A stretch of DNA of 60,944 nucleotides from Desulforegula conservatrix Mb1Pa (GTDB lineage Bacteria; Desulfobacterota; Desulfobacteria; Desulfobacterales; Desulforegulaceae): the NCBI RefSeq assembly GCF_000426225.1, contig NZ_AUEY01000020.1, positions 1 to 60,944 of the forward strand, written 5' to 3'. The notes beneath the pieces are model-generated. The model was not told where the DNA came from and ran no database searches. It saw only the letters and a list, made by a program, of their open reading frames with translations. The position numbers were made by a program, and so were the translations under genes. This document shows, in pieces, positions 4,301 to 60,465 of this stretch (position 1 is its first letter; every line of letters starts with the position of its first letter).

Positions 4301-6974
4301 CGCTGGCAACGGCAAGGTTTCCATTTCAGGAAACACACTTACTGTCAATCCGACCGCTGATCTGGCCCTTAATACCGAGTACGCCATCAAAATCAGCGGA
4401 GATGCCATTAAAGATATTCCTGGAAACAGTTTCGCCGGAATTTCGGATAATATTACCTATAATTTCAAGACAGATTTCGCTCCTGTCATCACCTCCAACG
4501 GCGGCGGAGCCACAGCAGCCGTCAATGTTGCGGAAAACACCACAACAGTTACGACCGTGACTTCCACAGATTCCGATCCTGGCCAGATAACTCTTTACTC
4601 CATTACAGGCGGAGCGGATGCTTCAAAATTCAGCTTAAACGCTGGAACAGGCGTATTGACCTTCAGGTCTGCCCCTGATTTTGAAGCTCCACAGGACACA
4701 AACAGCGACAATATTTATGTGGTTGAAGTGACGGCGGACGACGCGAACGGGGGAAGGGATCTTCAGGCAATATCTGTTACAGTGACAGATGTGAATGAAA
4801 CCGTGACACCTCCTCCGCAGCCGCCTGCACCACCACAACCGCCCCAGCCACCACAACCGAATGTAATTCCTCCTGTCAATCAGTGGGGCAATTATCCAGA
4901 CAATGACCATGACGGCATCCCTGAAACAGTTGAAAAACAGGTGCCAGGCCTTACGGGCGGTGTAACAGGAGACGGAAACGGTGACGGCATACAAGATACT
5001 GCGCAAAAAGGCGTCAGTTCCATTCCTTTTGACTACACCTCTGGAAATGGCCAGTCATCCCAGGCATTTCTCACGCTTGTGGGTGGAGCAGAGGAAGGAA
5101 AGATCAAGGACGATGCCGGACAGCCTGTTGTTCTCCGTGAGGTTCATCATGAGGATGCTCCAGCTAATCTTCCGTCAGACGTATCCATGCCATTCGGAAT
5201 GATAAGCTTCAAGGCAGACGCGCCTTCGGCAGGTTCTTCAGTCGGTTTCAGCATTTACGTTGACGGAAGTGTTCCTGTGAACGGTTACTGGAAGCAGGAC
5301 AAAAACGGCAACTGGGTGAACCTCGCAAGTTCTGCAATGGGTGGCCAGGTCATTACTGAAGGCGGAAAGACAAGGCTCGACTTTTTGATTACAGACGGAG
5401 GAATATTCGATAAAGATGGAAAGGCCGACGGAGTCATAACAGACCCAGGTGCTCCTGGATGGCGTGATTTAGCCACCTCCTTTGATGAGAATTATTATCT
5501 CGAAAGCAAGCTTGCGGAACTTAAGGCCGACGGTTACACCCAGTACACCACGACTCAGCAGGTAAAAGACGGCATTATACAGGCAGGCCTGACAGTGCTT
5601 CAGCATTTTCAGCTATGCAGCCTTAAAGAAGGAACAAATCCAAACCAGTTTGTAAATACAGCCGAATATCTCCAGGCCAAGGCTGTTCAGCTGAATCAGG
5701 CAGGATTCGGAGGAAGAACAGACTGGTCAGCCGATGATGTGAAAAATGGTCTTCTTGCCGCAGGTTTCACAAATGTGGTCGATCATTTCAAGAGTTCAGG
5801 CTGGCTTGAGAATATCAATCCATCCAACAGGTTTGATATCAGCGAGTACTTGAAAACAAATGGAGAGGTTCGCGGCCTTAGCGTGGATCAGATAATTGAA
5901 GGATTAAAGACTGATGGACTCGATCCTCTGGAACATTATGTAAAAGACGGCCAGAATAAGCCAGGAATTACGATTTCTGCAGTCTCTGGAGCAGAAAGCG
6001 TGAGGACGGATTATGTGAATACTTCTGTCTTTAATGAAAACTACTACCTTCAGAGCAAATATCTCCAGCTTCAGGCAATTGGCGTAACAGCAAGCATAGG
6101 TGAGATATCCGCCGGAATAGCGAATAGCGGAATGACATTATTCGAGCATTTTCAGAAATACAGCCTTGCTGAAGGAACGGATCCGAACCAGTTCTTTGAT
6201 ACTTCCGAATATCTGCAGGCAAAGGCTGGCCAGATGAATGCCGCTGCATTCGGAGGAAAAACAAACTGGACAAGCGCAAATGTAAAGAGCAGCATGCTCG
6301 AAGCCGGATATACCACTGCCATGGATCATTTCAAGACATATGGCTGGCTTGAGGACGTCAATCCTTCCTCAAGATTCGATGTCAGTACATATCTTGAGAC
6401 CTGGGCAGCGCATTCAGGCACGAGTGTGGATAATGTTAAGGCAACATTCAAACAGCAAGGATTCGATCCTGTTACCCATTACCTTAACTATGGCCAGAAC
6501 GAATCCGGCATAACAGTCAAAAATGCGGCAAGCAGATCCTTCGGCGCTGACAAGTCTCTGATAGATGACAGCAATGGCGTTATTTATGGCGGCACGGGTA
6601 ATGATGTCTTTGTATCTGGCTCTGGTTTAAACGCAATATCAGATCAGGGTGGAATTGATACGCTCAGGTTCGATGAAGGCATAACAAAAGACAGCATAGC
6701 CCTTTTTAAAACAAGCTCAGGTACAGATCTTATCTGGGATATGGGGGGGGCTAATCAAATTAAGGTTCTTAACCAGACATCTGCTGCCTCGGCAGTGGAG
6801 GAATTTGTAACAAAAGATGGCTACTGGCTTTCATCTACAGATGTCAATAAAGTGCTTCAGGACATGACGACATTTGCGAGCAATAATGGTATTGCCATGA
6901 CAAACATCAATGATGTAAGAAATAGTCCTGATCTGATGAACGTCATAAACACGGCATGGCACGCTCCTGCCTGA
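1308..6974 (+). CDS. Giant DUF4347 / cadherin-like / RTX-like secreted surface protein, probable type I secretion substrate
   Basis: A protein of 1888 residues without an N-terminal signal peptide. Visible order: DUF4347 domain (about 23-184); a parallel beta-helix-like segment beginning with a GAGSLRQAI motif (190-300); a Gly-rich stretch with long glycine runs (298-520); several Ig/cadherin-like modules (568-1056, including an SbsA-type Ig module near 936); a cadherin repeat (1058-1164); a Pro-rich linker (1165-1188); calcium-loop motifs DNDHDGIPE and DGNGDGIQD (1195-1230); a choice-of-anchor-U-like domain (1232-1385); two long repeats starting FDENYYL and FNENYYL (1390-1555 and 1572-1740); and a C-terminus with an RTX-like GGTGNDVF motif (1745-1888). 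DUF4347 proteins are commonly exported by type I systems, and TolC, ABC and HlyD genes follow directly. Likely a calcium-stabilised adhesin or biofilm protein; its ligand is unknown. Confidence 0.85.
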   Translation: MTVLQNQFENNIFEIKQADSSAHRVEVVFVDSRVSDAKNLLAGLSPDCTAVFIDAGKDGLSQMADYLSAHPGADAVHILAHGSDGNLLLGSTFLDSDSIKGKADDLSKIGGLLSEEGDILIYSCGFGAGDKGAALVGTLAAMTGADVAASDDRTGKGGDWDLEIRSGKIDADLPFSSQAVLNYDHDLVRLPVIITVTNNNDSGAGSLRQAISDSMDGDTITFASGMTINLSTKALDNSGVNDDSMLVINKGLTIDGDLDNDGTPDVVLDADYNGRVLKIESGTVTLDGLTLTNGLLSGDGGNYDSPGGSALGAAIYNDSTLTILNSNITGNTATGGGGGGGAYHGGAAAYEGFLGFGGGGGSGISGHGGAAGGNSLNSNGAAGANGNGGGGAGGAAPGISSDRSYTPANGSAGGTVSWTYQGNNYSGTIGGDGGTSSGGGYGGYAFILDSGGYGGSVTGAGGGGGGAGTATGAIGGSAVGGIYNKGTLNIASTNFILNQGAGGGGGGGRGAGGTGTGAVYNEGTLNYNNTSTTFNINNLGAGGFQGNNSVQAASVNDIAGTAAIVSDWDKGPYVTSVNSSTANGRYNAGDVISIQVVFSENVDVAGTPTLTLETGTTDRVVDYFEGSGTNTLTFKYTVQTGDASLDLDYANINALDLNGGTITSATKANANCNLPSPGMANSLGANKAIAIGPAASITAPGTFSVTEDVSAAIAGISFADADAGDSIETATLSVNSGTLTATTGNNVTVGGTAQALTLTGKIADINAFVAAHSVTFTTAQDATSDVSLGLGLINNGGSQIVSKTATITVAAVNDAPVNNVPATQTVMAGSSLAFSSANNNLISVTDVDAGDSQNMTVEVRSTGGTLSWAIPGTSNFWGAQAKLSTLNQFYLSSLSFTPDSGFTGQASIKITTTDLGNTGTGGALTDIDFIYINVDGTAPTLAASGSTPADNATVVSLTASPQIKFSENIKFGTSGSIVLYNVTTNAAVETFDIATAQGAGNGKVSISGNTLTVNPTADLALNTEYAIKISGDAIKDIPGNSFAGISDNITYNFKTDFAPVITSNGGGATAAVNVAENTTTVTTVTSTDSDPGQITLYSITGGADASKFSLNAGTGVLTFRSAPDFEAPQDTNSDNIYVVEVTADDANGGRDLQAISVTVTDVNETVTPPPQPPAPPQPPQPPQPNVIPPVNQWGNYPDNDHDGIPETVEKQVPGLTGGVTGDGNGDGIQDTAQKGVSSIPFDYTSGNGQSSQAFLTLVGGAEEGKIKDDAGQPVVLREVHHEDAPANLPSDVSMPFGMISFKADAPSAGSSVGFSIYVDGSVPVNGYWKQDKNGNWVNLASSAMGGQVITEGGKTRLDFLITDGGIFDKDGKADGVITDPGAPGWRDLATSFDENYYLESKLAELKADGYTQYTTTQQVKDGIIQAGLTVLQHFQLCSLKEGTNPNQFVNTAEYLQAKAVQLNQAGFGGRTDWSADDVKNGLLAAGFTNVVDHFKSSGWLENINPSNRFDISEYLKTNGEVRGLSVDQIIEGLKTDGLDPLEHYVKDGQNKPGITISAVSGAESVRTDYVNTSVFNENYYLQSKYLQLQAIGVTASIGEISAGIANSGMTLFEHFQKYSLAEGTDPNQFFDTSEYLQAKAGQMNAAAFGGKTNWTSANVKSSMLEAGYTTAMDHFKTYGWLEDVNPSSRFDVSTYLETWAAHSGTSVDNVKATFKQQGFDPVTHYLNYGQNESGITVKNAASRSFGADKSLIDDSNGVIYGGTGNDVFVSGSGLNAISDQGGIDTLRFDEGITKDSIALFKTSSGTDLIWDMGGANQIKVLNQTSAASAVEEFVTKDGYWLSSTDVNKVLQDMTTFASNNGIAMTNINDVRNSPDLMNVINTAWHAPA

Positions 6975-10981: not shown

Positions 10982-11296
10982 TGGAAAACACCTTTTTCAA
11001 AGGCTATGTTCCCCTTAGATGTTGAAAAGCGAGATAATAATTCTTTTTGGACTTATGGATCTTTTTGTAAAAAGTTCCTTAAGTCCCCTCAAAAACTTTA
11101 TGTTTTTATTATGATCAGACGCAAATGCTCTAAAATTGTGGATGCACTGTCTAATTACCTGAAAGTTTTTGCGGAGCTTTTTTCAAAAAGCGACCCGCCG
11201 GAGGCCGCTTTTTATTAAAAGTATTAGTTTTAGCTATTGGAATGATAAAATATTCCACATTTAACGGGAACAGAGCTTTTTCAAAAGGGGTTTTCC
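10982..11296. repeat. Composite inverted repeat inside the secretion operon gap
   Basis: Two arms of about 45 bp (10982-11026 and 11253-11296) are near reverse complements. Translated in opposite directions they give WKTPFSKAMFPLDVE and WKTPFEKALFPLNVE. They flank a copy of a second dispersed repeat (11162-11205). The short reading frames through this DNA come from the repeats and are not real genes. The whole 640-bp gap between the ABC and adaptor genes (10775-11437) is otherwise empty. Confidence 0.75.
11162..11205 (+). repeat. Dispersed repeat family 2, copy 1
   Basis: The core TTTTTGCGGAGCTTTTT is followed by CAAAAAGCGACCCGCCGG. The same text recurs at 43663-43705 and 60422-60465. The centre can fold as GCTTTTT facing AAAAAGC. 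All three copies are between genes. Confidence 0.8.
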
Positions 11297-12844: not shown

Positions 12845-13000
12845 GATTATCTCGCAAAAAAGTCAAAAAAGGCGTCGGCGTCATGCATGACTTGATCCGC
12901 CATTATTGTATTTTCAATTACTTCTGGATTCCGGCTCCCGGTTTTCACCAGGACAGGCCCCGCAGAAAAGACAGGAATCGGCCTTTTTGAAAGACCATCA
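12845..13000 (+). repeat. TIR element, copy A
   Basis: Copy of the window's main dispersed element. Its left end (CTCGCAAAAAAGTC) and its internal words GGCGTCGGCGTCATG and TTCTGGATTCCGG match the other copies. The right end is degraded. It carries an extra CACCAGGACAGGCCCCGC segment also found in copy G at 39334. Confidence 0.85.
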
Positions 13001-15469: not shown

Positions 15470-15601
15470 GATGGCTTTGCAAAAAGTCAGAAAAGGGCTT
15501 CGGCGTCATGCGGATTTAATCCGGCATTTTGTATTTTCAGGCACTTCTGGATTTCGGCCTTCGTCGGAATGACGGAAATCAGACTGTTTGCGACCTTGTA
15601 A
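15470..15601 (+). repeat. TIR element, copy B
   Basis: Same element as at 12845. It contains TTGCAAAAAGTC, TTCGGCGTCATGC, ATCCGGCATTTTGTATTTTC and GGAATGACGGAAATC, and ends in TTGCGACCTTGTA. It lies just upstream of the terC ribosome binding site. Confidence 0.88.
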
Positions 15602-16971: not shown

Positions 16972-17106
16972 GATTGTCTCGCAAAAAGTCAAAAAATGGC
17001 CTTAGCTTCATGCCTGACTTGATCCGGTATCTTTGTAATTTCAGCCGCTTCTGGATTTTGGCCTGCGCCGGAATGACGGGAACCGGACTTTTTGTGACCT
17101 TGTCAA
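16972..17106 (+). repeat. TIR element, copy C
   Basis: Left end GATTGTCTCGCAAAAAGTC, right end GGACTTTTTGTGACCTTGTC. Internal words ATGCCTGACTTGATCCGG and GCCGGAATGACGG match the family. Confidence 0.9.
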
Positions 17107-17534: not shown

Positions 17535-19694
17535 ATGCTGGCAAAAATCTTTCCTTTTATCACGTGGTTTGAGGGCTACAATTCCAGTAAATTCAAGCTT
17601 GACCTTGTTGCTGGTATCACTGTTGCTCTTGTTCTTATTCCTCAGTCAATGGCTTATGCCAAGCTGGCGGGTCTTCCGCCATATTACGGTCTTTACGCCG
17701 CTTTTCTGCCTCCGATGATAGCCGCTCTTTTTGGGTCTAGCAGACAGCTTTCCACAGGGCCGGTTGCGGTTGTGTCTCTTATGACGGCTGCCTCCCTAGA
17801 AACACTTGCCACAGCCGGGAGTAAGGAATTCATCGCCTATGCCATCATGCTGAGTCTTACGGTCGGTATTTTCCAGCTAATATTGGGTGTTTTCAGATTA
17901 GGACTAGTAGTAAATTTTCTTTCCCATCCTGTTGTAAACGGTTTCACAAATGCTGCTGCCATAATCATCGCTACATCCCAGCTTGGAAATATGTTCGGTG
18001 TATATGTTGACAATGCCGAGCATCATTATGAAACAATCATGAGGGTATTTGCGGCTGCATACCACTATCTGCATATTCCGACCCTCGCGCTCGGGATTCT
18101 CGCAATTTTGATCATGGCTGTTCTGAAAAAAATAAATCCGAGGATACCCAATGTTCTTGTGGCTGTTGTTGTCTGCACTCTCATTTCATGGGCAACCGGA
18201 TTCAACAAGGACGCAAAGATTGCCCTCGACAGCATAAAATCTCCTGAGGTTGTTCAAGATATTGCGGCGTTCAATATGGAAGTTAAAGCAATAAAGGATG
18301 CCTCTACCCAGAGAGTCACAGTCATGGACGAAAAGGAAAAAGCCCATGCTGAACATGATAAAGTCAGGGAGATAGACGCGGATCATCAGGCTGCCCTCAT
18401 AGAAAACAAGATTTCATCTTCAAAGAAAAAATCCGGAGAATTAAGGGCAAAACTAAGGGAATATCTTCTGACAGGTGTTGAAGCAGACGGTGCTGGGAAA
18501 GTTTTCTTTCTGAAAAATGCTCTTCCTGAAGGAGCCAAAACAGATGGCCGCACCTGGAGAGTAAGGGTTGGAAACAGTGAGATAAAAGACCAGGAAGTTA
18601 CGGTCATGGGTGCAGGCGCAATCCTTGGGGAAATACCGCCAAAGCTGCCCGAGCTATCCATACCCAAGATGAGCATGAAGATGTTTCTCAAGCTTCTTCC
18701 TTATGCTGTAATCATCTCCCTCCTCGGATTCATGGAGGCCATCTCAATTGCCAAGGCGCTTGCAGCCAAAACAGGCCAGAAACTTGATCCGAATCAGGAA
18801 CTGGTAGGCCAGGGACTCGCCAATATCATAGGTTCATTTGGTCAGAGTTATCCTGCTTCAGGATCCTTCTCAAGATCGGCAGTAAACCTTCAATCCGGTG
18901 CTGTTACCGGATTTTCAAGCGTAATCAGTTCATCCATAGTTGTTATTACCCTGCTTTTCCTTACCCCGCTTCTTTATAATCTGCCCCAGTCAGTTCTTGC
19001 TGCCATAATAATGATGGCGGTTGTAAGTCTTATAAACGTTGATGGTCTCCTGCATGCTTGGAAGGCAAAGCGCTCTGACGGCATCATCACGCTTATCTCC
19101 TTTGTCTGCACACTGATTTTTGCTCCCCATCTTGACAAAGGGATTATGGTCGGTGTCGGTCTTTCACTGGGTGTTTTTCTATATAAATCTATGAAGCCAA
19201 GGGTTGCTATTCTTGCAATGAGTGCGGACAACCGCCTTGTTCATGCTGAAAAGCATGGGCTCAAGGAGTGCGACAAGGTTGCGGTTACAAGATTTGACGG
19301 GACTCTGTTTTTTGCAAATGCCAGCTATCTTGATGATGTGATTTATGAAATCAGGGTTGAAAAGCCAAACCTCAAGCATGTTATTCTTGTTTGTGACGGT
19401 ATCAACGACATAGATGCATCAGGTGAAGAATCACTTTCCATGATCATTGACCGTACAAAGGCCGCAGGCATTGATATTTCCCTGGCAGGCGTCAAGGAAG
19501 CTGTTATGGCTGTTCTTGAAAGAACCCATCTCATAGAAAAAATCGGAGAACGTAATATTTATTCTACCAAGGAAATAGCTGTTCAGTGTGTTTATGAAAA
19601 AACACACCTTACAGATGACGAAAGAATGTCGTGCCCGCTTGTCTGCTATATACCTGAAAAGCAAGACAGCTCATGCATTGCTCAGGCCTGCTGA
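17535..19694 (+). CDS. SulP-family anion transporter with STAS domain and a large charged insert
   Basis: A 719-residue inner-membrane protein. The N-terminal SulP core shows DLVAGITVALVLIPQSMAYA, PPYYGLYAAF and the HPVVNGFTNAAA helix. A C-terminal STAS domain follows (about 565-690, VILVCDGINDIDASGEESL). SulP proteins carry sulfate, bicarbonate or other anions. Between membrane segments, residues 228-375 form a highly charged, helix-rich insert (many Lys, Glu and Asp, e.g. MDEKEKAHAEHDKVREIDAD) that normal SulP proteins lack. The start is uncertain: an in-frame ATG at 17439 adds 32 residues, but family similarity begins after 17535. It heads a cluster with a beta-helix protein and signalling genes. 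Confidence 0.88.
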   Translation: MLAKIFPFITWFEGYNSSKFKLDLVAGITVALVLIPQSMAYAKLAGLPPYYGLYAAFLPPMIAALFGSSRQLSTGPVAVVSLMTAASLETLATAGSKEFIAYAIMLSLTVGIFQLILGVFRLGLVVNFLSHPVVNGFTNAAAIIIATSQLGNMFGVYVDNAEHHYETIMRVFAAAYHYLHIPTLALGILAILIMAVLKKINPRIPNVLVAVVVCTLISWATGFNKDAKIALDSIKSPEVVQDIAAFNMEVKAIKDASTQRVTVMDEKEKAHAEHDKVREIDADHQAALIENKISSSKKKSGELRAKLREYLLTGVEADGAGKVFFLKNALPEGAKTDGRTWRVRVGNSEIKDQEVTVMGAGAILGEIPPKLPELSIPKMSMKMFLKLLPYAVIISLLGFMEAISIAKALAAKTGQKLDPNQELVGQGLANIIGSFGQSYPASGSFSRSAVNLQSGAVTGFSSVISSSIVVITLLFLTPLLYNLPQSVLAAIIMMAVVSLINVDGLLHAWKAKRSDGIITLISFVCTLIFAPHLDKGIMVGVGLSLGVFLYKSMKPRVAILAMSADNRLVHAEKHGLKECDKVAVTRFDGTLFFANASYLDDVIYEIRVEKPNLKHVILVCDGINDIDASGEESLSMIIDRTKAAGIDISLAGVKEAVMAVLERTHLIEKIGERNIYSTKEIAVQCVYEKTHLTDDERMSCPLVCYIPEKQDSSCIAQAC

Positions 19695-24259: not shown

Positions 24260-24369
24260 GACGGACTCGCAAAAAGGCAAAATGCCATGCAGACTTGATC
24301 CGGCATAAGGTTTTTAAAGGGACAGGCCCGCCGGGATAACGGAAACCGGATTTTTTGCGGCCTTGCCAA
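24260..24369 (+). repeat. TIR element, copy E (short)
   Basis: The shortest copy, about 110 bp. GACGGACTCGCAAAAAGGC at the left and TTTTTTGCGGCCTTGCCAA at the right flank a reduced interior that keeps ACTTGATCCGGCAT and GGACAGGCCCGCCGGGATAAC. Confidence 0.85.
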
Positions 24370-26403: not shown

Positions 26404-27795
26404 CTATTCTGAAGGTTGCTCATCCAGCATCCTTGCCTTTACATCTATTTTTTGACTCTCATCCTTCATATCAACTGAAGATAGCCCAAGGCTCTGAAAT
26501 TTTCTGGCAGTCACAAACACCCTTCTTTCAAGGGAACCTACAGCCTGATTGTAGGTGTCAGCGCATTTTTCTATATCTTTACCAAGCCTGTTTACATGTA
26601 TGGCAACGGACTGGATTCGTTCGCAAAGCTCTCTTCCCATTTCCATTACAGTTTTAGCGCTCCTTGCCACGGAATCTTCGCGCCAAGCATAGGATACGGT
26701 TTTAAGAAGGGATATGAGAGTCGACGGAGTTGCCAGAACTACGCCTTTTTCTGAAGCTGTTTCCATTAAATCAGGCTGCTCAGTCAGGGCTGCACTGAAA
26801 AAATTTTCTCCAGGAATGAATAAAACCACAAATTCAGGAGAAGGTGAAAACTGTTTCCAGTAATTCTTCTGGGAAAGCTTCAAAACATGGGTGGAAACCT
26901 GACGGGCATGGTCTTTTAAAAAAGCGGCCTTTTCTTGGTCATTCTCAGCTTCAACAGCGTCTATGTATGCGGCAATCGGTGTCTTGGCATCGACCACTAT
27001 GTTTCTGCCTCCGGGAAGCCGTATGAGCATATCAGGCCTTAACCTGCCGTCTTCTCCACCACCAGAAATCTGCTCCACAAAATCACAGTGTTCTGCCATG
27101 CCAGCCATTTCAGCTGCTCGCTTCAGGGTCATTTCTCCCCATCTTCCGCGAACATGGGGCTGCCTGAGAGCTTTTACAAGTTTTGCCGTTTCTTTTTCAA
27201 GTGTCTGCTGCCCCTTCGCAAGTGAAGTCACCTGTTCGGAAAGACTGCCATAAGCCTTGGATCTTTCAGTTTCAAGCGCCTTTCCTGAAGAGTCAAATCT
27301 GTCAAGAGCCTCTTTCACGGGCTGAATCATGCCTTCGACGGCCTTGTCCCTCTTGTCCAGCTCTACCTTTGCGGAATCGAAATATCTGGAAAGGGTCTGG
27401 CCAGCCATATCCATGAAGCTTTTGCTTGTTTCCCTGAAAATTTCAGCTGATAAAGTCTTGAAAGAATTGGACAGGCGATCCCGGTCTGCCATCATGATTT
27501 CGTTCTGTCTGCCTGCGGCCTCTATTTCAGCTGTTGTTTTTGCGAGAGACTGGGCCGTTTCATGATATTTCTGTCTTATTTCCTCTATTTTTTCTGACAG
27601 AGCTACGTTTTCAGCTGATTTCATGGAAAGGGCAGATTCAGAGACAGCCAGGGCTGACCTTGCATCTGCAATATCGACGGATAATATCCTCTGGGCCGAA
27701 TTTCTTCCTGAAATCCTTCCGGCAACCAGGCCTATGATGAATCCGGCAAATCCAAGGATTACACCCAGTAACAGAGCATCATTCTGAAGATTCAT
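26404..27795 (-). CDS. rmuC: RmuC-family DNA recombination protein
   Basis: A 463-residue protein. N-terminal membrane anchor (about 6-24, [19 protein letters not shown]), a long coiled coil (about 40-190), then the RmuC nuclease-like core with [38 protein letters not shown] (Asp and Lys of a PD-(D/E)xK-like fold) and [11 protein letters not shown]. RmuC limits inversions at short inverted repeats in E. coli, which is notable given the many inverted repeats here. The ATG overlaps the moaC stop by 4 bp, so it is the last gene of the mobA-moaE-moaC-rmuC unit. Confidence 0.92.
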
Positions 27796-35313: not shown

Positions 35314-36024
35314 ATGAAGAATGCCGAGTTACCATTTATAAAAGATATGTTCAACAATATTGCTCCGATGTATGATTTTCTGAACAGGCTGCTGTCACTC
35401 AAGCGTGATGTGAAATGGCGCCGGAAAATGGTAGCGTCCCTTGATACTCCTCATGGAGGAGCCTCTTTTCTGGATGTTGCCTGCGGAACCGGAGATGTTC
35501 TTTTTGAGATTTACAGGCAGAAAGGGATATCGTCTAAGGTTACGGGTCTTGATTTTTCAAAAAACATGCTTGATATTTCAAATGACAAGATCCGCAAATC
35601 AGCTTACGGAAAAACTTCCCTCATATGCGGCAACGCATTGACCCTGCCATTTGCGGACGGAGAATTCGACGGCCTGACTATAGCATTCGGCATTAGAAAC
35701 ATAATAGACAAGAAAACAGCCCTGCTGGAATTTTTCAGATGTCTGAAACCAGGAGGCAGCCTTGCAATTCTTGAACTGACAGCGCCTGAGAATGTTTTTC
35801 TGCACCATCTTTATATGCTTTATTTTGAGAAGGTGTTGCCTGAAATCGGCGGATTTTTTTCAAAAAATATAGATGCTTATTCTTATCTGCCCCAATCTGT
35901 GCTAAAATTTCCAAAAAACAGTGAATTCGCCGCCACCATTGAAAACTCAGGCTTTGAAAAAGTCTGCTGGGAGCAACTGACACTCGGAGTCTGTACTCTT
36001 TTCAAAGCACGAAAACCTCTTTAG
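35314..36024 (+). CDS. menG: Demethylmenaquinone C-methyltransferase (UbiE/MenG)
   Basis: A 236-residue SAM methyltransferase. FIKDMFNNIAPMYDFLNRLLS is the UbiE N-terminal signature, DVACGTGDV the SAM loop, and IAFGIRNIIDKKTALLEF the conserved central block. It methylates demethylmenaquinone, the last step in menaquinone synthesis; ubiquinone is not expected in an anaerobe. The ATG at 35314 is used; a GTG at 35302 in the same frame is an alternative. It is followed 9 bp later by the PilZ protein gene. Confidence 0.92.
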   Translation: MKNAELPFIKDMFNNIAPMYDFLNRLLSLKRDVKWRRKMVASLDTPHGGASFLDVACGTGDVLFEIYRQKGISSKVTGLDFSKNMLDISNDKIRKSAYGKTSLICGNALTLPFADGEFDGLTIAFGIRNIIDKKTALLEFFRCLKPGGSLAILELTAPENVFLHHLYMLYFEKVLPEIGGFFSKNIDAYSYLPQSVLKFPKNSEFAATIENSGFEKVCWEQLTLGVCTLFKARKPL

Positions 36025-36033
36025 CAGGATGAT

Positions 36034-36696
36034 ATGGATAGAAAACTGATCATTTTAGCGCCTCCTGGTTCTGCAAGGGAACTGTACATTGCCGCAGTCC
36101 TGAAAAGCGGCATTGGTGCAGATGTTGTTTCCACATGTCAGGAAATGTTTGATAGTATGGCAAAAAATCCATACTGCGGAGCGCTGCTTGATTTTTTTAC
36201 AAAGATGAAGTCATCAAGCTCCGAAAAAAAGGTTCTTGCCGAAATATCCGAAGGTTTTCCGATGATGATTGTCAAGACCGCTCCCGAGCCTGGACAGATA
36301 CAGGCGTTCAGTTTTTCTGACGTAAAAAAAGGCGAGACAATTGAAAGCTTTATACTGAAGGAATGCCTTGCAGTAAAACCAAGGACCATCAGGGCCAGTG
36401 AAAGAAAGAACCTCATTTTCAATGTCATTGTTTCTGACAATCCTAGATTTTCGGCTGAGGGACTGGAGCGTACAGTAACTGTCAATGTTTCTGCAAGCGG
36501 GTGTTTTGTTTTTTCAGTGGTGGAAAGGGTAGTTGATTCGACTGTATGGATAATATTTCGTGAAATAGAAGACAAAACACCAATAAAGGCGGTTGTTAAG
36601 GAGGTTCTTCCCTGGGGACAGAAAAGACGCTTTCCTGGCTTTTGCCTGGAGTTTGAAACCATAAAGGAAAATCAGCTCAAGGAAATATGGAGATAG
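36034..36696 (+). CDS. PilZ-domain protein with an N-terminal receiver-like region
   Basis: A 220-residue protein. The C-terminal half shows the c-di-GMP-binding PilZ motifs: RxxxR (RASER, near 121) and later NVSASGCF, the (D/N)xSxxG box. The N-terminal half looks like an alpha/beta receiver fold (LIILAPPGSARELYIAAVLKS) but lacks a conserved phospho-acceptor Asp in the expected place. It probably binds c-di-GMP and acts through partner contact, perhaps on surface attachment. It lies downstream of menG on the same strand and converges on nadB with a 15 bp gap. Confidence 0.72.
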   Translation: MDRKLIILAPPGSARELYIAAVLKSGIGADVVSTCQEMFDSMAKNPYCGALLDFFTKMKSSSSEKKVLAEISEGFPMMIVKTAPEPGQIQAFSFSDVKKGETIESFILKECLAVKPRTIRASERKNLIFNVIVSDNPRFSAEGLERTVTVNVSASGCFVFSVVERVVDSTVWIIFREIEDKTPIKAVVKEVLPWGQKRRFPGFCLEFETIKENQLKEIWR

Positions 36697-36711
36697 CTGC
36701 TTGTTTATGAA

Positions 36712-38325
36712 TCAGCAGCAGCTTTTCCTGAGAATTGTGTTTTTCTTTAGTGAATCATCTTTTTCTGGATGATCCTGATTAAAATGGAGTCCTCTGCTTT
36801 CCTTTCTCATTGCTGCCGAAGTCATTATCATCTCTGAAATTTCAGCTATGCTCCTTAGTTCGGCAGTGTGGGAATTTATTGCTTTTGTATCAAAAAGCTC
36901 CGTTGCCTGCTTTCTTAAACCCCTGATTATTTTAAGTCCTTCTGCCAGTCCCTTGTCAGATCGCACAATCCCGGCATAATTCCACATTGTGTCCTTTATG
37001 GCCGTTTTTATTCTTTCCACTTCGGTAATTTCTGCGTGTCTCATATTTTTTCTTTCAAATCGTTCCAGAGCATCATGCAGCAGGCTTCCTGCCTTAATTT
37101 TTTCAGCTTCCTCACATGCGGACAGATCCGCTTCATGGGCATAAACAAGTGCCTCAAGAAGGGAGTTGCTGGCAAGGCGGTTTGCTCCGTGCAGACCTGT
37201 GCAGGCGGCTTCTCCTATGACGTAAAGTCTTTTTATGTCTGTCTGTCCTTTCCTGTCTGTGATAACTCCTCCGCACATATAGTGAGCGGCCGGAACCACA
37301 GGAATAGGTTCTTTTGTCATATCAAAGCCCATTTCAAGGCATTTTTTGTATAAATTCGGGAAACGCTTTTTGACGAATCCGGGATCTTTGAAAGAAATGT
37401 CCAGAAAAATTTTCTCGCCGTTTTTCAGCTCGGAATGGATTGCCCTGGCTACAATATCCCTGCAAGCAAGATCTTTCAAAGGACTGTATTTGTGCATGAA
37501 CGGGTTGCCAGATGAGTCTTTCAGAATTCCGCCTTCTCCCCTTACTGCTTCTGAAATAAGAAAACAGCGGCCATCGCTGTTGCACATGCATGTAGGATGA
37601 AACTGCATGAACTCGAGGTTCGCAACACTTGCTCCGGCCCTGTAACCCATGGCAATGCCGTCGCCAGTTGCTATATCAGGATTGCTTGTGTATGGATAAA
37701 CGCTTCCAGATCCGCCTGCCGCAAGAACGGTGATTTTTGATAAAAAGGATTTAATTTCAAGGCTTGTCGAATCAAGGGCAATGACTCCGTTACAGGATAT
37801 CATCCCATGACTTTCTTTTGAATCTGTTATGAAATCAAGGGCAAGGTGATTTTCAAACACTTTTATCCTCGGGTGGGTTTTCACAAGTTTAGATAGGACT
37901 GTTTCGAGTTCATGGCCTGTCATATCAAGGGCATGGACTATTCTTTTTCTGGAGTGACCTCCCTCAAGACCAAGATCAAGACTGAATTCAGCCTCGTTTT
38001 CGCTTTCTGAAAAAGGCTTGGTATCGAATTTTACTCCAAGGCTGATTAGCTCTCTTATTCTTGCAGGCCCGTTTTTTACAACTAGTGTTGCGGCATCCTT
38101 GTCAGTAAGGCCGCACCCTGCTTCAATCGTGTCCCTGATATGCAGTTCGAAAGAATCCTCAAGATCAAAGACAGATGCTATTCCTCCCTGGGCATGCAGG
38201 GTGTTGCTGTCCTTGATATTCTTTTTCGTGATTATGGAAACATTTCCATGCTCAGCCGCTTTAAGGGCATAGAAAAGCCCTGCCACTCCGCTTCCTATTA
38301 CAAGAAAATCAGTATTTGAACGCAT
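36712..38325 (-). CDS. nadB: L-aspartate oxidase
   Basis: A 537-residue flavoprotein with FAD-binding VIGSGVAGLFYALKAAEHG, HAQGGIASVFD, the substrate-binding HPTCMCN and GEAACTGLHGANRLASNSLLEALV, and a C-terminal helical domain. It oxidises aspartate to iminoaspartate, using fumarate as acceptor in anaerobes, for NAD synthesis with NadA. Those signatures favour NadB over fumarate reductase or succinate dehydrogenase FrdA. nadA and nadC are not in the window. It is a single gene with a GGGACAAAATG start context. Confidence 0.94.
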   Translation of the reverse strand: MRSNTDFLVIGSGVAGLFYALKAAEHGNVSIITKKNIKDSNTLHAQGGIASVFDLEDSFELHIRDTIEAGCGLTDKDAATLVVKNGPARIRELISLGVKFDTKPFSESENEAEFSLDLGLEGGHSRKRIVHALDMTGHELETVLSKLVKTHPRIKVFENHLALDFITDSKESHGMISCNGVIALDSTSLEIKSFLSKITVLAAGGSGSVYPYTSNPDIATGDGIAMGYRAGASVANLEFMQFHPTCMCNSDGRCFLISEAVRGEGGILKDSSGNPFMHKYSPLKDLACRDIVARAIHSELKNGEKIFLDISFKDPGFVKKRFPNLYKKCLEMGFDMTKEPIPVVPAAHYMCGGVITDRKGQTDIKRLYVIGEAACTGLHGANRLASNSLLEALVYAHEADLSACEEAEKIKAGSLLHDALERFERKNMRHAEITEVERIKTAIKDTMWNYAGIVRSDKGLAEGLKIIRGLRKQATELFDTKAINSHTAELRSIAEISEMIMTSAAMRKESRGLHFNQDHPEKDDSLKKNTILRKSCC

Positions 38326-38372
38326 TTTGTCCCGATTCTTTTATTGGGCCTGTTTTAGGATTAATCAACTTT

Positions 38373-38505
38373 GATGGACTCGCAAAAAGTCCGATTACCG
38401 TCATTCCGGCGAAGGCCGGAATCCAGAAGTAATTGAAAATACTGGATGCCGGATCAAGTCCGGCATGACTCCGATGCATTTCTTGACTTTTTGCAACCTT
38501 GTCAA
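38373..38505. repeat. TIR element, copy F, with interior reversed relative to its ends
   Basis: The ends read as in other forward copies (GATGGACTCGCAAAAAGTC at the left, GACTTTTTGCAACCTTGTC at the right). The interior runs in the opposite direction (CCGTCATTCCGGCGAAGG at the left, GGATCAAGTCCGGCATGAC at the right). Confidence 0.92.
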
Positions 38506-38560
38506 CTTTCATATAGGTGATTATTTTTATTTTGGCAGCATTTAGAATGACAGCCATCAA

Positions 38561-39208
38561 CTAGTAATATCGGCTTTTGTGCCTTGTATTAATTCCGAGA
38601 AACCAACCGAGAAGGAGCACCGCAGCACCCGCCAGAAACCATCTTACACCCTTGGCGACTATTTTTTTATCCATTTCGTCAATGGTTTTATTCAGATTAT
38701 CTATCTCTGCAAGGGCTTTTTCATGTTCCGGTTTTATAGTCTGGCAATCCGAGGTTTCTTTCTTTAATGCCTCAAGCTGCATCGTAACTTCATCAAGCTG
38801 TAATCTGAGGCTCTGGATTTCCTGTTCGGGATTAAGGGCTTCGACAGCTTTTGACGCATCAGCAGGCGCAGGAACAGATTCCTTTTGAGGAGGAGGTGTC
38901 ACGGTTTCTGCTTGTTGGTTTTCTTCTTTTTCCTCTTTCTTGACCTCTGGTGTGCCTTTGGTTTTTGTCAGGAATTTTTTATTGATCCAGCCCTGTTTCC
39001 CATCGGAATCAGATACCTTTACCCAAATTTCTCCATCTTCAATCACGTTAAGCTGTTTGCCTGATCTTACAACCGCAATGGCCTGGCTTTCAGTACCTTT
39101 TCCTGATCTTAGATTGACATCAGAAGTTGTTTTTACAGTATACGATGCCAGCGCCATATTGCCTGATACAAGCATAAAAATTGTCGCCGCAGCTATTGCC
39201 GTTCTCAT
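38561..39208 (-). CDS. SH3-domain periplasmic protein with coiled coil and C-terminal membrane anchor
   Basis: A 215-residue protein: signal peptide (cleavage near ALA at residue 21), bacterial SH3 domain (about 25-85, VNLRSGKGTESQAIAVVRSG), a Pro/Glu-rich linker, coiled coil (about 125-175), and one C-terminal membrane helix (WFLAGAAVLLLGWFLGI) with basic end. This is the TIGR04211-type, YgiM-like arrangement. The SH3 domain probably binds peptidoglycan. CAGGAGGAAATAA is a strong ribosome binding site. A single gene; function otherwise unknown. Confidence 0.85.
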   Translation of the reverse strand: MRTAIAAATIFMLVSGNMALASYTVKTTSDVNLRSGKGTESQAIAVVRSGKQLNVIEDGEIWVKVSDSDGKQGWINKKFLTKTKGTPEVKKEEKEENQQAETVTPPPQKESVPAPADASKAVEALNPEQEIQSLRLQLDEVTMQLEALKKETSDCQTIKPEHEKALAEIDNLNKTIDEMDKKIVAKGVRWFLAGAAVLLLGWFLGINTRHKSRYY

Positions 39209-39333
39209 TTATTTCCTCCTGAAGGTCGTTTTTTGCCGCCGGATATTGTTATTTTGTATATAAATTCATATCAAAAGGCTTCTGTCTATTCCGAAGCCTT
39301 TAGTCAGTCATTTTTACCGGCCTTATAAATTCT

Positions 39334-39488
39334 GATGGACTCGCAAAAAATAGAAAAAGGCAACGGCGTCATGCCGGACTTTATAAGGCATCCAGTGTTC
39401 TCAGATATTTCCGGATTCCGGCTCCAGGTTTTCACATGGACAGGCCCCGCCGGAATGACGGTAATCGGACTTTTTACGACGTTGTCAA
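39334..39488 (+). repeat. TIR element, copy G
   Basis: GATGGACTCGCAAAAAATAG at the left and GGACTTTTTACGACGTTGTC at the right. It has the longest interior, containing CACATGGACAGGCCCCGC as in copy A. Confidence 0.9.
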
Positions 39489-39663
39489 ATCTAAAAAAGA
39501 CAGAAACGTATTAACCTTTTTTGTCAAATGCCTCAATCTGTTTCTTTTTTTCTGTTTCAGAATATTAGGTTTTCTTTATCAATTTGTTTTTTGTTAGCTA
39601 TTCCTGGATTGCAATCAAGTAGCTTTTAAAGTTTTTTGATAAAATTTCCATGTATTTATGCTT

Positions 39664-39796
39664 GATAGACTCGCAAAAAGTCGGAAATAGGCGTCGGCGT
39701 CGTGCCGGATTTGATCCGGCATCTTTGTATTTTCAGATACTTTTGGATTTCGACAAGGTGCGGAATTTTCGGTTGTTTCCATTCCGGCCTTGTCAA
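39664..39796 (+). repeat. TIR element, copy H
   Basis: GATAGACTCGCAAAAAGTC at the left. The right end is diverged (TTCCATTCCGGCCTTGTC). The interior keeps GGCGTCGGCGTCGTGCCGG and TTTGATCCGGCATC. Confidence 0.88.
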
Positions 39797-39989
39797 CATT
39801 CACTTTACAATGAAAGCCATTGGCATTAGTTTATTCGGAATGCAGGGTGCACAAGGAAATATTTGCAAGTAATGACACCTCTGCGTCTGCAATTTGCAGA
39901 GAAGAATATTTTTGCGGCATTTTTAAAGGCCGCGATTCAGAATCAATACTTTTGAGGGATTCTGTATAAACTTAGTTTGGATGAAATTT

Positions 39990-40436
39990 ATGATCGCTTT
40001 TGACTTATGCTGCTCCCAGGGGCATTCCTTTGAAGGCTGGTTTGAAGACAGTGCAGCCTTTGATTTACAGATGCAGAAAGGCCTTATTAACTGCCCTGTT
40101 TGCGATGATTGCAATGTGAGGAAGCTGCTTTCACCCGTTGCCATTCGAAAGAGCTCGCCTTCAGGAGCATTTCCTCATATGCCAAAGTCTCCTGAAGAAG
40201 GTCTTAAGATACTCGAACAGGTTGGAAGAGAGCTAAAGGAATTTGTAGAAAAGAATTTTGAGGATGTTGGGACTGATTTTGCCAGAGAAGCTCTTAAGAT
40301 GCACTACGGTGTTGAAGAGCCTCGAAATATCAGGGGCGTCAGTTCCGAAAATGATGAGGACGTGCTTAGAAATGAAGGTATAGCTTTTTTTAAACTGCCT
40401 TCGTTTGACTGGCCAGATCAGGAGTCTGATGAATGA
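39990..40436 (+). CDS. DUF1178 family protein
   Basis: A 148-residue protein with the family's Cys-containing start (MIAFDLCCSQGHSFEGWF) and CPVCDDCNVRKLLSPVAI, forming a likely zinc knuckle. The C-terminal part is acidic and helical. Start at 39990 gives the typical family N-terminus; an ATG three codons upstream (39981) is possible. The function of DUF1178 is unknown. It precedes a Nudix hydrolase gene by 18 bp on the same strand and is probably co-transcribed. Confidence 0.85.
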   Translation: MIAFDLCCSQGHSFEGWFEDSAAFDLQMQKGLINCPVCDDCNVRKLLSPVAIRKSSPSGAFPHMPKSPEEGLKILEQVGRELKEFVEKNFEDVGTDFAREALKMHYGVEEPRNIRGVSSENDEDVLRNEGIAFFKLPSFDWPDQESDE

Positions 40437-40454
40437 TATTCAGGAGTAAATAAT

Positions 40455-41126
40455 ATGGATATGCAAGATCTTGAAACCCTTAGACTCAATCTTCCGGAGC
40501 ATCCCGGAATTCATGGCAGGGAAAATTATTTCAACGCAGCTGTGCTCATCCCTCTTGTAAATATTGACGGCGAGCTGAATTTTCTTTTTGAGAAAAGGGC
40601 AAAGGGAATACGTCAGGAAGGCGAAGTCTGCTTCCCTGGAGGCAAATACAGCCGGAAAACTGATAAAACACGGCTTGAAACTGCTCTGCGCGAGACCCAT
40701 GAAGAGCTTGGCATTTCAGGGGACAGGATTTTTCCTTTGGGCCAGATGGATTCCCTCATAGCTCCCGTGCTTGGGGGGGTTATCGATCCATTTATTGCTG
40801 AAGTAAAAATAAGCGGGATAGAAGATCTGACTCTTCAGAGCGACGAAGTTGAAAAGGTCTTTTTTGTACCGGTATCCTGGTTCGAGCAGAATCAGCCCGA
40901 AATTTATCATGTCAGGATCGAGGCTCATCCGAGAATAAAAAAGGAAAACGGCGAGATTGAAACACTTCTCCCGTCCATAGAACTCGGGCTTCCGGACAGT
41001 TATGCCCAGCCCTGGGTAGGCAGAAAGCATAGGGTTCTTGTTTACAGGGTTGCTGGTGAGCTTGTCTGGGGACTCACTGCTGAAATGGTCAATGCCGTTG
41101 TGAATAAATTCAAAAGGCAGGATTAG
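40455..41126 (+). CDS. Nudix hydrolase, CoA pyrophosphatase-like
   Basis: A 223-residue protein. The catalytic Nudix half RETHEELGI is intact (Glu residues that bind metal) after GGKYSRKTDKTRLETAL, and EVCFPGGK precedes it as in CoA diphosphatases of the NudL/YeaB type. It would cleave CoA or related nucleotide diphosphates. The first Nudix Glu position is not conserved, as in other CoA-type members. Downstream of a DUF1178 gene; convergent with the ABC-F gene. Confidence 0.85.
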   Translation: MDMQDLETLRLNLPEHPGIHGRENYFNAAVLIPLVNIDGELNFLFEKRAKGIRQEGEVCFPGGKYSRKTDKTRLETALRETHEELGISGDRIFPLGQMDSLIAPVLGGVIDPFIAEVKISGIEDLTLQSDEVEKVFFVPVSWFEQNQPEIYHVRIEAHPRIKKENGEIETLLPSIELGLPDSYAQPWVGRKHRVLVYRVAGELVWGLTAEMVNAVVNKFKRQD

Positions 41127-41197
41127 AAAATGCTTTTTCAGAATCCTGCCCATGATTTAAGCAATTATCTTAATCTGGTGCTTTGAATTGAACCGGT

Positions 41198-42817
41198 TTA
41201 TTTTCCAACCTTGCTCAGATAATACTCATACCCGCCTTCGTAGCTTGTCATTTCTCCATGATCAATCTGGAAAACCCTTTTGACGAGGGATCTCAGGAAG
41301 TACCTGTCATGGCTTACAATAACGACTGTGCCGTTGAATTCCTGAAGAGCTTCAAGGAGAATTTCCCTTGACTGGATGTCGAGGTGGTTTGTCGGTTCGT
41401 CAAGAATAAGGAAATTGACAGGTTTTGATAGGAGTGTCGCAAGAACAACACGGCTTTTTTCTCCGCCTGATAGTTTGTCTATTCTCTTATGAACATCATC
41501 GCCCTGGAAAAGAAAGGCTGCGCAAAGATTTCTGATAATTCCGATCCCGGCATGTGGAAGTGCATCCTGAACAGACTCAAAAACAGTTTTTTTAGGATCA
41601 AGAAGATCCATGGAATGCTGGCTGAAATAGCCGACGTTTACTGAAGCTCCAATCACGGCGCTGCCGGATGTAGGCGTTGTCTGTTCTGCGAGAACCTTTA
41701 GGAATGTGGATTTTCCGGCGCCATTTATTCCGACCACCGCAATCTTTTCCCTGCGCCTTATCATTCCTGAAATTCCGCCAAAAACAGACTTCTGGCCACC
41801 ATCAGGAAGTTCCCATACTTTTCCGAGGTTTTCCATGACAACAACGTCGTCACCTGAACGCGGAGGCTCTGCAAATTCAAACTTGATTTTCTTTTGTTCC
41901 GGTGGAAGCTCTATACGTTCAATTTTTTCTATCTTTTTCACCCTGGATTGAACCTGGGACGCATGGGAAGCTCGGGCCGCAAATTTTGCAATGAATTCCT
42001 CTTCCTTTGCCAGCATTTCCTGCTGTCTGCGGTAACTTGCCATTAGCTGTTCGCGCCTGACCTCTCTTTCTCGAAGATAAAAATCATAGTTGCCTGTGTA
42101 CGTTGTGGCTGTTCTATTGGCAATTTCTATGGTTCTTGAAACTATCCTGTTCATGAAATCATGATCATGGCAGGTCATGAGAAGCGCGCCCTTGAATTCG
42201 TCAGCCAGCCATTCTTCAAGCCATACGATGGATTCAACGTCCAGATGGTTTGTGGGTTCGTCAAGGAGAAGGACATCAGGATTTACGGTCAGAATTTTTG
42301 CAAGCGCTATACGCATTTTCCAGCCACCGCTGAATGACTCAACTGGCCTGTCGTAAGAGTCAGGGCCAATGCCTAAACCTGTCAGAACTGCCTGGGCCCT
42401 TGATTCAAGATCATATCCGCCCTGGTGCTCGAACTGGTCAACCGCATTGCCGTATTTTTCGAGCAGGTTGGCCATATCATCATCAGACATTGGTTCTGCC
42501 ATTGCAGCTTCCATTGTCCTTATTTCTTCGCCAAGCCTTACAACGTCCTGAACCGCAGACATTACCTCTGCGAGTGCCGATCTGCCGGACATATCTCCGA
42601 CGTCCTGGGAAAAATAGCCTATTCGTGTTTTTGAGGCTTTGGTGATCTCTCCGCTGTCAGCCTCTTCTTCACCTGTGATAAGCCTGAAAATGGTTGTTTT
42701 GCCCGCACCGTTGGGGCCTACAAGGCCTGTTCTGGTAGAAGGAAGTATCTGAAGGCTGGCGTTCTGGAAAAGGATCTGCGAGCCATGCTGTTTTGTGATG
42801 TTGCTCAAATGTATCAT
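41198..42817 (-). CDS. ABC-F family ATPase
   Basis: A 539-residue soluble protein with two ABC domains and no membrane segment. Walker A motifs GPNGAGKTT (near 37) and GINGAGKST (near 350); signature SFSGGWKMR and LSGGEKSR; Walker B LLLDEPTNHLD and LILDEPTNHLD. The interdomain linker is helical and charged (about 240-310). ABC-F proteins act on the ribosome in translation control or antibiotic protection. AGGAG before 42817 supports that start. It is not clear which ABC-F subgroup this belongs to. Confidence 0.92.
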   Translation of the reverse strand: MIHLSNITKQHGSQILFQNASLQILPSTRTGLVGPNGAGKTTIFRLITGEEEADSGEITKASKTRIGYFSQDVGDMSGRSALAEVMSAVQDVVRLGEEIRTMEAAMAEPMSDDDMANLLEKYGNAVDQFEHQGGYDLESRAQAVLTGLGIGPDSYDRPVESFSGGWKMRIALAKILTVNPDVLLLDEPTNHLDVESIVWLEEWLADEFKGALLMTCHDHDFMNRIVSRTIEIANRTATTYTGNYDFYLREREVRREQLMASYRRQQEMLAKEEEFIAKFAARASHASQVQSRVKKIEKIERIELPPEQKKIKFEFAEPPRSGDDVVVMENLGKVWELPDGGQKSVFGGISGMIRRREKIAVVGINGAGKSTFLKVLAEQTTPTSGSAVIGASVNVGYFSQHSMDLLDPKKTVFESVQDALPHAGIGIIRNLCAAFLFQGDDVHKRIDKLSGGEKSRVVLATLLSKPVNFLILDEPTNHLDIQSREILLEALQEFNGTVVIVSHDRYFLRSLVKRVFQIDHGEMTSYEGGYEYYLSKVGK

Positions 42818-43615: not shown

Positions 43616-43662
43616 TCCTGTTTTAAATGGGAATTTCGAATTTGAGAGAAGCAAGTATTCGG

Positions 43663-43705
43663 AAATTTTTTGCGGAGCTTTTTTTCAAAAAAGCGACCCG
43701 CAAGG
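43663..43705 (+). repeat. Dispersed repeat family 2, copy 2
   Basis: TTTTTTGCGGAGCTTTTT followed by CAAAAAAGCGACCCGCAAGG; compare 11162 and 60422. Confidence 0.75.
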
Positions 43706-43839
43706 TACACGCATCTGGTGTGCAAGTCTTAGAGCTTGAGCACCCTACGAATCGGCCTTTTTTTACGGCAAATTAACCATACAAGGTTGATCTTAAAGAG
43801 GATAATAGCACAAAAGTTCGGGTTAGCTTGGAACGGGCA

Positions 43840-58323: not shown

Positions 58324-59001
58324 TTTTTATTTTCTCCTTAGGTATAGCTCGTTTCCGGTTTGATCCGGACATTTCAGGTCACCGAATTATTAATTTACGG
58401 TTTTCTGTATAATGCAAAGATAATGCCATATCTTTTTATTGTGTTTCTTGGATTAAGCAGGTAAAAAATATATTGATATTTAAAGTATTTCCGGATTATG
58501 GCATGTTTCTTTGGTTGTCATAAAATTTCAAAAATGTAATTTTAATTACAATAATGTAATGTTTGTGGAGTTAGATGAATTTACTTAATAAATCTCATGG
58601 ACAATATCGGTCTACTCTAATTATGCCAGGGGCTGGTGAATTTGTTTTCAGACCAAGACCTCCCTTGTCAATGGGGTAACACTGATATATTATTGATTTT
58701 TTTACAATGCAATAATGTTTTTTCAAGAAAAGATTCTTGACTGATGACGCCCTTTTTTATGGATAATGAATGATTGGCAAGGTCGCAAAAAGTCTGATTT
58801 CCGTCATTTCGGCGTAGACCGGAATCCAGAAATGATAGAAATTAATGGATGCCGGATCAAGTCCGGCATGACGCCGACGCCTTTTTTTGACTTTTTGCGA
58901 AACCATCAATGATTGAGGGCCTTACAAATATCTTTTTTTGATTTTTTACGTAGCCCGTATAAAATATGGGTGTTCATGAATCTTCAATATCCGGAGCTGT
59001 A
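58324..59001. other. Long divergent promoter region upstream of the glutamate synthase unit
   Basis: No gene. It is AT-rich and holds a GTAATT-TT-AATTAC inverted repeat (58536-58549) and repeat copy I. The promoter for the minus-strand glt unit should lie within 58330-58700. The regulator gene start at 59002 lies beyond the repeat. Confidence 0.6.
58774..58909 (-). repeat. TIR element, copy I (inverted)
   Basis: A complete copy in the opposite direction to most copies. TTGGCAAGGTCGCAAAAAGTC at its left end and GACTTTTTGCGAAACCATCAA at its right, with GCCGGATCAAGTCCGGCATG inside. Confidence 0.9.
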
Positions 59002-60315: not shown

Positions 60316-60421
60316 AAGAATAATGTGCTTATGCTCAATTCTCAGTAACATTTGAAAGTTCATGGGCTTAACATTTTTAAAACTCTAAAATTATCAGTTT
60401 TTTGCCTACTAACAAAACCAT

Positions 60422-60465
60422 AAAGTTTTTGCGGAGCTTTTTACAAAAAGCGACCCGCCGGAGGC
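60422..60465 (+). repeat. Dispersed repeat family 2, copy 3
   Basis: TTTTTGCGGAGCTTTTT followed by CAAAAAGCGACCCGCCGG; nearly identical to 11162-11205. Confidence 0.85.

Follow-up and report, generated by a model that had tools for sequence, protein, structure and literature searches.

The window, by which we mean the whole stretch of 60,944 nucleotides that was analysed, is contig C20 of its own genome (G000; 178 contigs, 4.47 Mb). It carries a nadB-like gene and, on the same strand, a gene for an SH3-domain protein; between the two lies a short element, hereafter copy F, bordered by a direct repeat. The features needed for the following are listed below.

36712..38325, reverse strand: nadB-like gene (FAD_binding_2 and Succ_DH_flav_C domains), with 47 bp from its start to F
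38367..38372, no strand: left target duplication of F, AACTTT, matching the right one
38373..38503, forward strand: copy F, a 131-bp non-autonomous mobile element, non-coding, its interior reversed relative to its ends
38373..38391, forward strand: L-type terminal inverted repeat of F, GATGGACTCGCAAAAAGTC
38400..38426, forward strand: P arm of F, hairpin GTCATTCCGGCGAAGGCCGGAATCCAG, adjoining the L end in F and the R end in standard copies
38442..38469, forward strand: Q arm of F, hairpin, reading GTCATGCCGGACTTGATCCGGCATCCAG on the reverse strand, adjoining the R end in F and the L end in standard copies
38485..38503, reverse strand: R-type terminal inverted repeat of F, reading GACAAGGTTGCAAAAAGTC on the reverse strand
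38504..38509, no strand: right target duplication of F, AACTTT, matching the left one
38561..39208, reverse strand: SH3-domain protein gene (Pfam), on the nadB strand, F lying between the two genes
26404-27795, reverse strand: RmuC gene (PF02646, E 6.4e-97)

The two ends of F are of different types: positions 38371-38391 read TTGATGGACTCGCAAAAAGTC, the L-end type, and the reverse strand of 38485-38505 reads TTGACAAGGTTGCAAAAAGTC, the R-end type with one mismatch to the R pattern that was searched. At its nine outermost positions the L end reads TTGATGGAC, conserved in 149 ends, and the R end TTGACAAGG, conserved in 119 ends and differing from L at five adjacent positions; the corresponding letters of F are identical to the L and to the R consensus respectively. 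The inner parts of the L and R ends are the same. In the standard layout, L-Q-P-R, the Q arm (GTCATGCC..) lies next to the L end and the P arm (GTCATTCC..) next to the R end. In F the breakpoints of the flip fall inside the inner portion of each end, which reads TCGCAAAAAGTC at the left and TTGCAAAAAGTC at the right. A sequence-only reading of this DNA had proposed that the outer ends of F are as in the forward copies and its inner part their reverse complement, and both the end types and the order of the P and Q arms bear this out; its view that an exchange within the inverted ends would give such a layout also holds, be it by recombination, gene conversion or template switching. That reading had placed the copy at 38373-38505: a copy does lie there, but its last position is 38503, the outermost TT and AA being part of the 6-bp target duplication. 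The strand is predicted to fold with its two ends paired in a stem that carries two hairpins (z -5.1), and Rfam at gathering scores gave 0 matches across the whole window.

F belongs to a large family. The L-end pattern, TTGATGGNNTCGCAAAAAGTC, has 85 exact matches in its own genome and 215 with at most one mismatch, and the R end has 248 with at most two; the patterns read backwards gave 0 in each case. With F as a query we obtained 594 first-look candidates, 40 of which were scored, and a profile search of the own-genome loci collected 175 different near-full-length copies. Typing by weight matrix settled both ends of 138 copies: 94 are standard (LR), 21 flipped (RL; one of them, L175, is poor and its class doubtful), 18 have two L ends (LL) and 5 two R ends (RR), the remaining 37 being not typed at both ends; flipped copies are over-represented in this set, since two of the searches aimed at them. 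The tiles of C1-C4, the four largest contigs (710,893 bases), hold 74 copies, namely 42 LR, 3 RL (the doubtful one counted), 6 LL, 1 RR and 22 with at least one end untyped. Once C12 and the window are included, both known beforehand to contain flipped copies, the tiles amount to 850,812 bp and 92 near-full-length copies: 51 LR, 5 RL (the doubtful one again included), 8 LL, 2 RR and 26 not typed at both ends. The flipped form is the rarer of the two arrangements of middle and ends. Other copies in the window are the following:

12846..12999, forward strand: long-loop copy with two L-typed ends, duplication ATATTT on both sides
15470..15600, forward strand: standard copy (L-Q-P-R)
16972..17104, forward strand: standard copy (L-Q-P-R)
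58776..58907, reverse strand: standard (L-Q-P-R) copy in reverse, its interior on F's strand and its ends swapped

A shortened and degenerate copy, with most of one hairpin arm gone, is found at 24260-24367. Elsewhere in the collected loci, an R end is followed by a single-hairpin interior (L069, position 1501), and a lone L end stands beside an unrelated short palindrome (L187, reverse strand, position 18491); these odd interiors suggest that the interior may be replaceable cargo. The window also contains a second repeat family, AAGTTTTTGCGGAGCTTTTTTCAAAAAGCGACCCGC, hairpin-like by eye, with three copies listed (11157-11205, 43658-43706 and 60417-60465), and a direct repeat of 253 bp (5590-5842 and 6133-6385; 71% identity, start-to-start spacing 543).

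F is a copy of a MITE-like family of non-autonomous mobile elements: it has terminal inverted repeats, a target duplication, a length of 131 bp (within the 50-500 bp range of such elements), no transposase gene and many copies. With the boundary set at GATGG...GTC, an exact 6-bp direct repeat borders 54 of 145 copies, against a mean of 2.1 (and at most 7) over 500 shuffles; when one mismatch is tolerated it borders 80 of 145, against 15.4. Eight other boundary registers gave an exact 6-bp repeat in just 0 or 1 of the 145 copies. The exact duplications follow a rule, their first base being A in 52 and their last base T in 53 of the 54. A target duplication of 2 bp had been considered (19/40 copies against 3.1; 58/105 against 10.6), and was replaced by the one of 6 bp once the boundary was moved two bases inward. 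Only 3 of the 92 tile copies have their midpoint in an ORF of at least 150 aa, though such ORFs cover 79% of the bases. Exact duplications are found in 10/21 flipped and 41/94 standard copies (Fisher p 0.81); they are scarcer in LL (2/18) and RR (0/5), 2/23 together against 51/115 in LR and RL.

Among the 40 candidates that were scored out of 594, the best other match to F is C1:65601-65733, 98% identical over the 133-base query. This copy lies on another contig and has its own duplication, AAAATT; since it is flipped too, the flip of F is probably older than its insertion. A third copy, at C12:29702, matches F at 98% over bases 1-97, its right end departing from the element. More generally the flipped copies cluster. 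By interior, the nearest neighbour of 14 of the 21 flipped copies is itself flipped, against 3.1 when labels are shuffled (maximum 11 in 1000); in a restricted set of 104 copies, from which the LL and RR copies, those that the F query alone had retrieved, and the poor copy L175 were left out, the same holds for 15 of 19, against 3.3 (a value that 0 of 5000 shuffles reached). On a tree built from 138 rows and 95 columns, the flipped label needs 12 changes, against 19.8 when shuffled (0 of 500 as low); as 1 of its 134 inner branches is starred and most branches are unsupported, the clustering is firm and the number of flips is not. A nadB scan of the genome contigs gave 18 loci, all at 49% identity or less.

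From these sequence comparisons, the flip most likely predates the insertion of F at nadB. We consider it very probable that a flipped lineage kept transposing, and that F landed upstream of nadB in an already flipped state. In an ancestral copy the interior would have turned round between the inner end sequences, which are inverted repeats of each other; the likeliest routes are template switching during replication and recombination between short inverted repeats, and the same process could also yield copies with two like ends (LL or RR). The flipped form, still a substrate of the transposase, would then have spread as a minority lineage, one member of which, F, would have inserted upstream of nadB with the flip already present. 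The re-sorting of end types and interiors across the family suggests that its transposase tolerates either end on either side. A passage of PMC8604942 describes in yeast how template switching between short inverted repeats leads to homogenisation of the arms and inversion of the spacer; LL and RR copies on the one hand, RL copies on the other, would then be the equivalents in this family. What is inverted in yeast, in that passage, is a spacer of a few bases, whereas the interior in the family of F measures about 93 bp, so that the parallel is one of analogy. Besides, the paucity of duplications in LL and RR copies indicates that switching need not have produced all of these, some of which may have decayed, recombined or been mistyped.

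The clustering leaves room for several founders. Recurrent flipping, in which interiors were inverted or ends exchanged independently in different copies, each event spreading a little and with no single founder, has in our estimation a chance somewhat short of even. The flipped copies span all three classes of interior length (14 standard, 4 long and 3 short among 21), as do the copies of standard layout (77, 11 and 6 among 94). The long-loop flipped copies have, by eye, the loop of the long-loop standard copies, and all four are bordered by perfect 6-bp duplications. The occurrence of flipped copies across loop classes suggests at least two flips, or loops exchanged later. Flipped C12:76437 is nearest to a standard copy at 95% and flipped C4:144439 at 92%, and the 12 changes taken by the unconstrained tree go in the same direction. 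Against this, a single clade of flipped copies is not rejected (AU p 0.165) on a tree whose branches are mostly unsupported, and loops passed from copy to copy by gene conversion would look like recurrent flipping. Tentatively, and with some hesitation, the family could be viewed as a natural record of the repeated inversion of an interior of about 93 bp, in which several copies would have flipped independently, the flipped forms staying fully mobile, and like-ended copies would be by-products of template switching. If so, a single genome would let inversion be counted against arm homogenisation in bacteria.

The interior might never have been inverted at all, the end types being swapped singly by gene conversion between dispersed copies. 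The existence of LL and RR copies (18 and 5) is what such a process would leave; we nevertheless hold it to be unlikely, as copies with both ends changed are more frequent than would follow from single exchanges made independently, both in the C1-C4 tiles (42 LR, 6 LL, 1 RR, 3 RL; Fisher p 0.014) and with C12 and the window added (51 LR, 8 LL, 2 RR, 5 RL; Fisher p 0.0024), these values being inflated because the flipped copies share descent, and one RL copy being doubtful. The exact duplications, seldom seen in LL and RR copies, also argue against ends exchanged one at a time.

Very improbable is the inversion of F's interior in place, in living cells, through its inverted ends, which would make it a small phase-variable switch at nadB. 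The sequence-only reading had taken the flip to imply invertible DNA or gene conversion at this position, between the nadB and SH3 genes; that the flip took place here, or still does, is not supported. Inverted repeats do stand on both sides of the interior, and inversion is reported for Correia elements, which form a comparable class (a passage of PMC10969869, citing its reference 52). That reading had also invoked RmuC as limiting inversions between short inverted repeats: the gene at 26404, within the window, is indeed RmuC by PF02646, but no link between it and F was found. According to PMC10270631, RmuC-domain proteins were initially linked to the rate at which short inverted repeats invert, their role being not clearly defined. 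The flipped state of F is however common to a near-identical copy elsewhere and to a clustered set, so that a flip at this site need not be supposed. No gene resembling a recombinase was noticed by eye among the ORFs of at least 90 aa at 35500-41500, of which nadB and the SH3 gene were examined with Pfam. The two strands of a copy are predicted to fold about alike (means of -40.9 and -39.8 kcal/mol for LR, -45.2 and -43.5 for RL), so that flipping should change little, and a promoter scan stayed at chance (1 found, 0.8 expected). A terminator scan gave 2 matches for 0.5 expected, one of them being the Q hairpin on the minus strand. On the Q-first strand the mean predicted fold is stronger in flipped than in standard copies (-45.2 and -40.9 kcal/mol respectively), which may reflect age or sampling. 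We saw no sign that the way the interior faces matters for nadB. F need not be a local genetic switch. Finally, that the ends are too alike for any orientation to be read, which the sequence-only reading had itself named among the outcomes that would refute its claim, is hardly credible: the inner end parts are identical and 37 of 175 copies are not typed at both ends, but L and R are distinguished by five adjacent diagnostic positions, each end type is conserved over more than 100 ends, and the nine outer letters of F fit at both ends.

Ends of this kind also occur in other genomes. The L-end pattern, with at most one mismatch, is present in 33 of 58 genomes, the own genome included, hence in 32 of the 57 others searched, all of them listed only as being of the same order; at least one match, in G050, looks like chance and lies inside a gene. 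In these relatives an A stands four bases before TTGATGG in 22 of 25 L ends; this A is the first base of the duplication and agrees with the same target rule. Short matches spanning about the P arm only (query 27-54) were found in G018, G020 and G044. G016 holds an element that is mostly 154 bp long (e.g. L245, L246 and L248), with near-identical ends and an unrelated interior, bordered by an exact duplication of 6 bp in 10 of 11 copies and of 7 bp in one; six of the stretches retrieved run into a contig end inside the element. All 11 copies read are in a single orientation, which indicates that the re-sorting of ends and interiors is not universal.

No autonomous element with F-type ends was found in the own genome or in the relatives examined. 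In 9-14 genomes, such ends were not found paired around the transposase at the loci inspected for NF033563 (4/4 matches), NF033594 (15/15), NF033593 (10/10) and PF01609 (DDE_Tnp_1; 30/38). A search for orphan ends left 43 of 252 ends without a near partner, and no transposase-like frame was noticed by eye; sixteen G016 stretches at unpaired end matches showed copies of 154-155 bp or 114 bp, or contig ends, and no long element. Among the candidates set aside are IS30, the end scan at four IS30 loci being empty; an ISNCY-type transposase gene (G000:C177:133-1194, L262; 338 bits, over the cut-off), which has other ends, none of F's element being found there; and a transposase remnant in G044 (L313), the end near it more likely coming, at a guess, from an element of about 310 bp.

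Altogether the grounds for seeing a DNA switch at nadB fall away, and a family-wide re-sorting of end types and interiors takes its place. Its very many re-sorted copies are material for measuring the inversion and the homogenisation of short inverted repeats in bacterial chromosomes.

The P and Q arms are each hairpins that we take to be REP-like, after the palindromic repeats of the REP/BIME type; the family of F differs from these in being bounded by transposon-like ends and target duplications. Our search of the open-access literature returned nothing on a MITE whose internal region is in inverted orientation, and we noticed nothing there on the family of F. Bacterial MITEs, to which the review PMC10969869 gives 50-500 bp, resemble this family by their small size, terminal inverted repeats, target duplication, numerous dispersed and mostly intergenic copies, and absence of a transposase gene. 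The family of F departs from them in having an interior made of a pair of palindromic hairpins, found in two orientations relative to the ends, and a parent insertion sequence that was not found. Chunjie of Geobacter uraniireducens (178-235 bp) is, by its description in PMC10969869, a comparable MITE family with conserved ends, variable size and mostly intergenic copies; the passage on it makes no mention of a flipped class, unlike what we see here. The Correia elements, or NEMIS, of Neisseria are of comparable size (about 107 and 155 bp, in the part of PMC2229807 that describes them) and have terminal repeats as in the family of F, and their inversion, as said above, is reported in PMC10969869. 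By description the two are set apart by their termini: TA in Correia elements (Table 1 of PMC2229807), where a TA duplication is expected, and in the family of F a duplication of 6 bp, A(A/T)NNTT.
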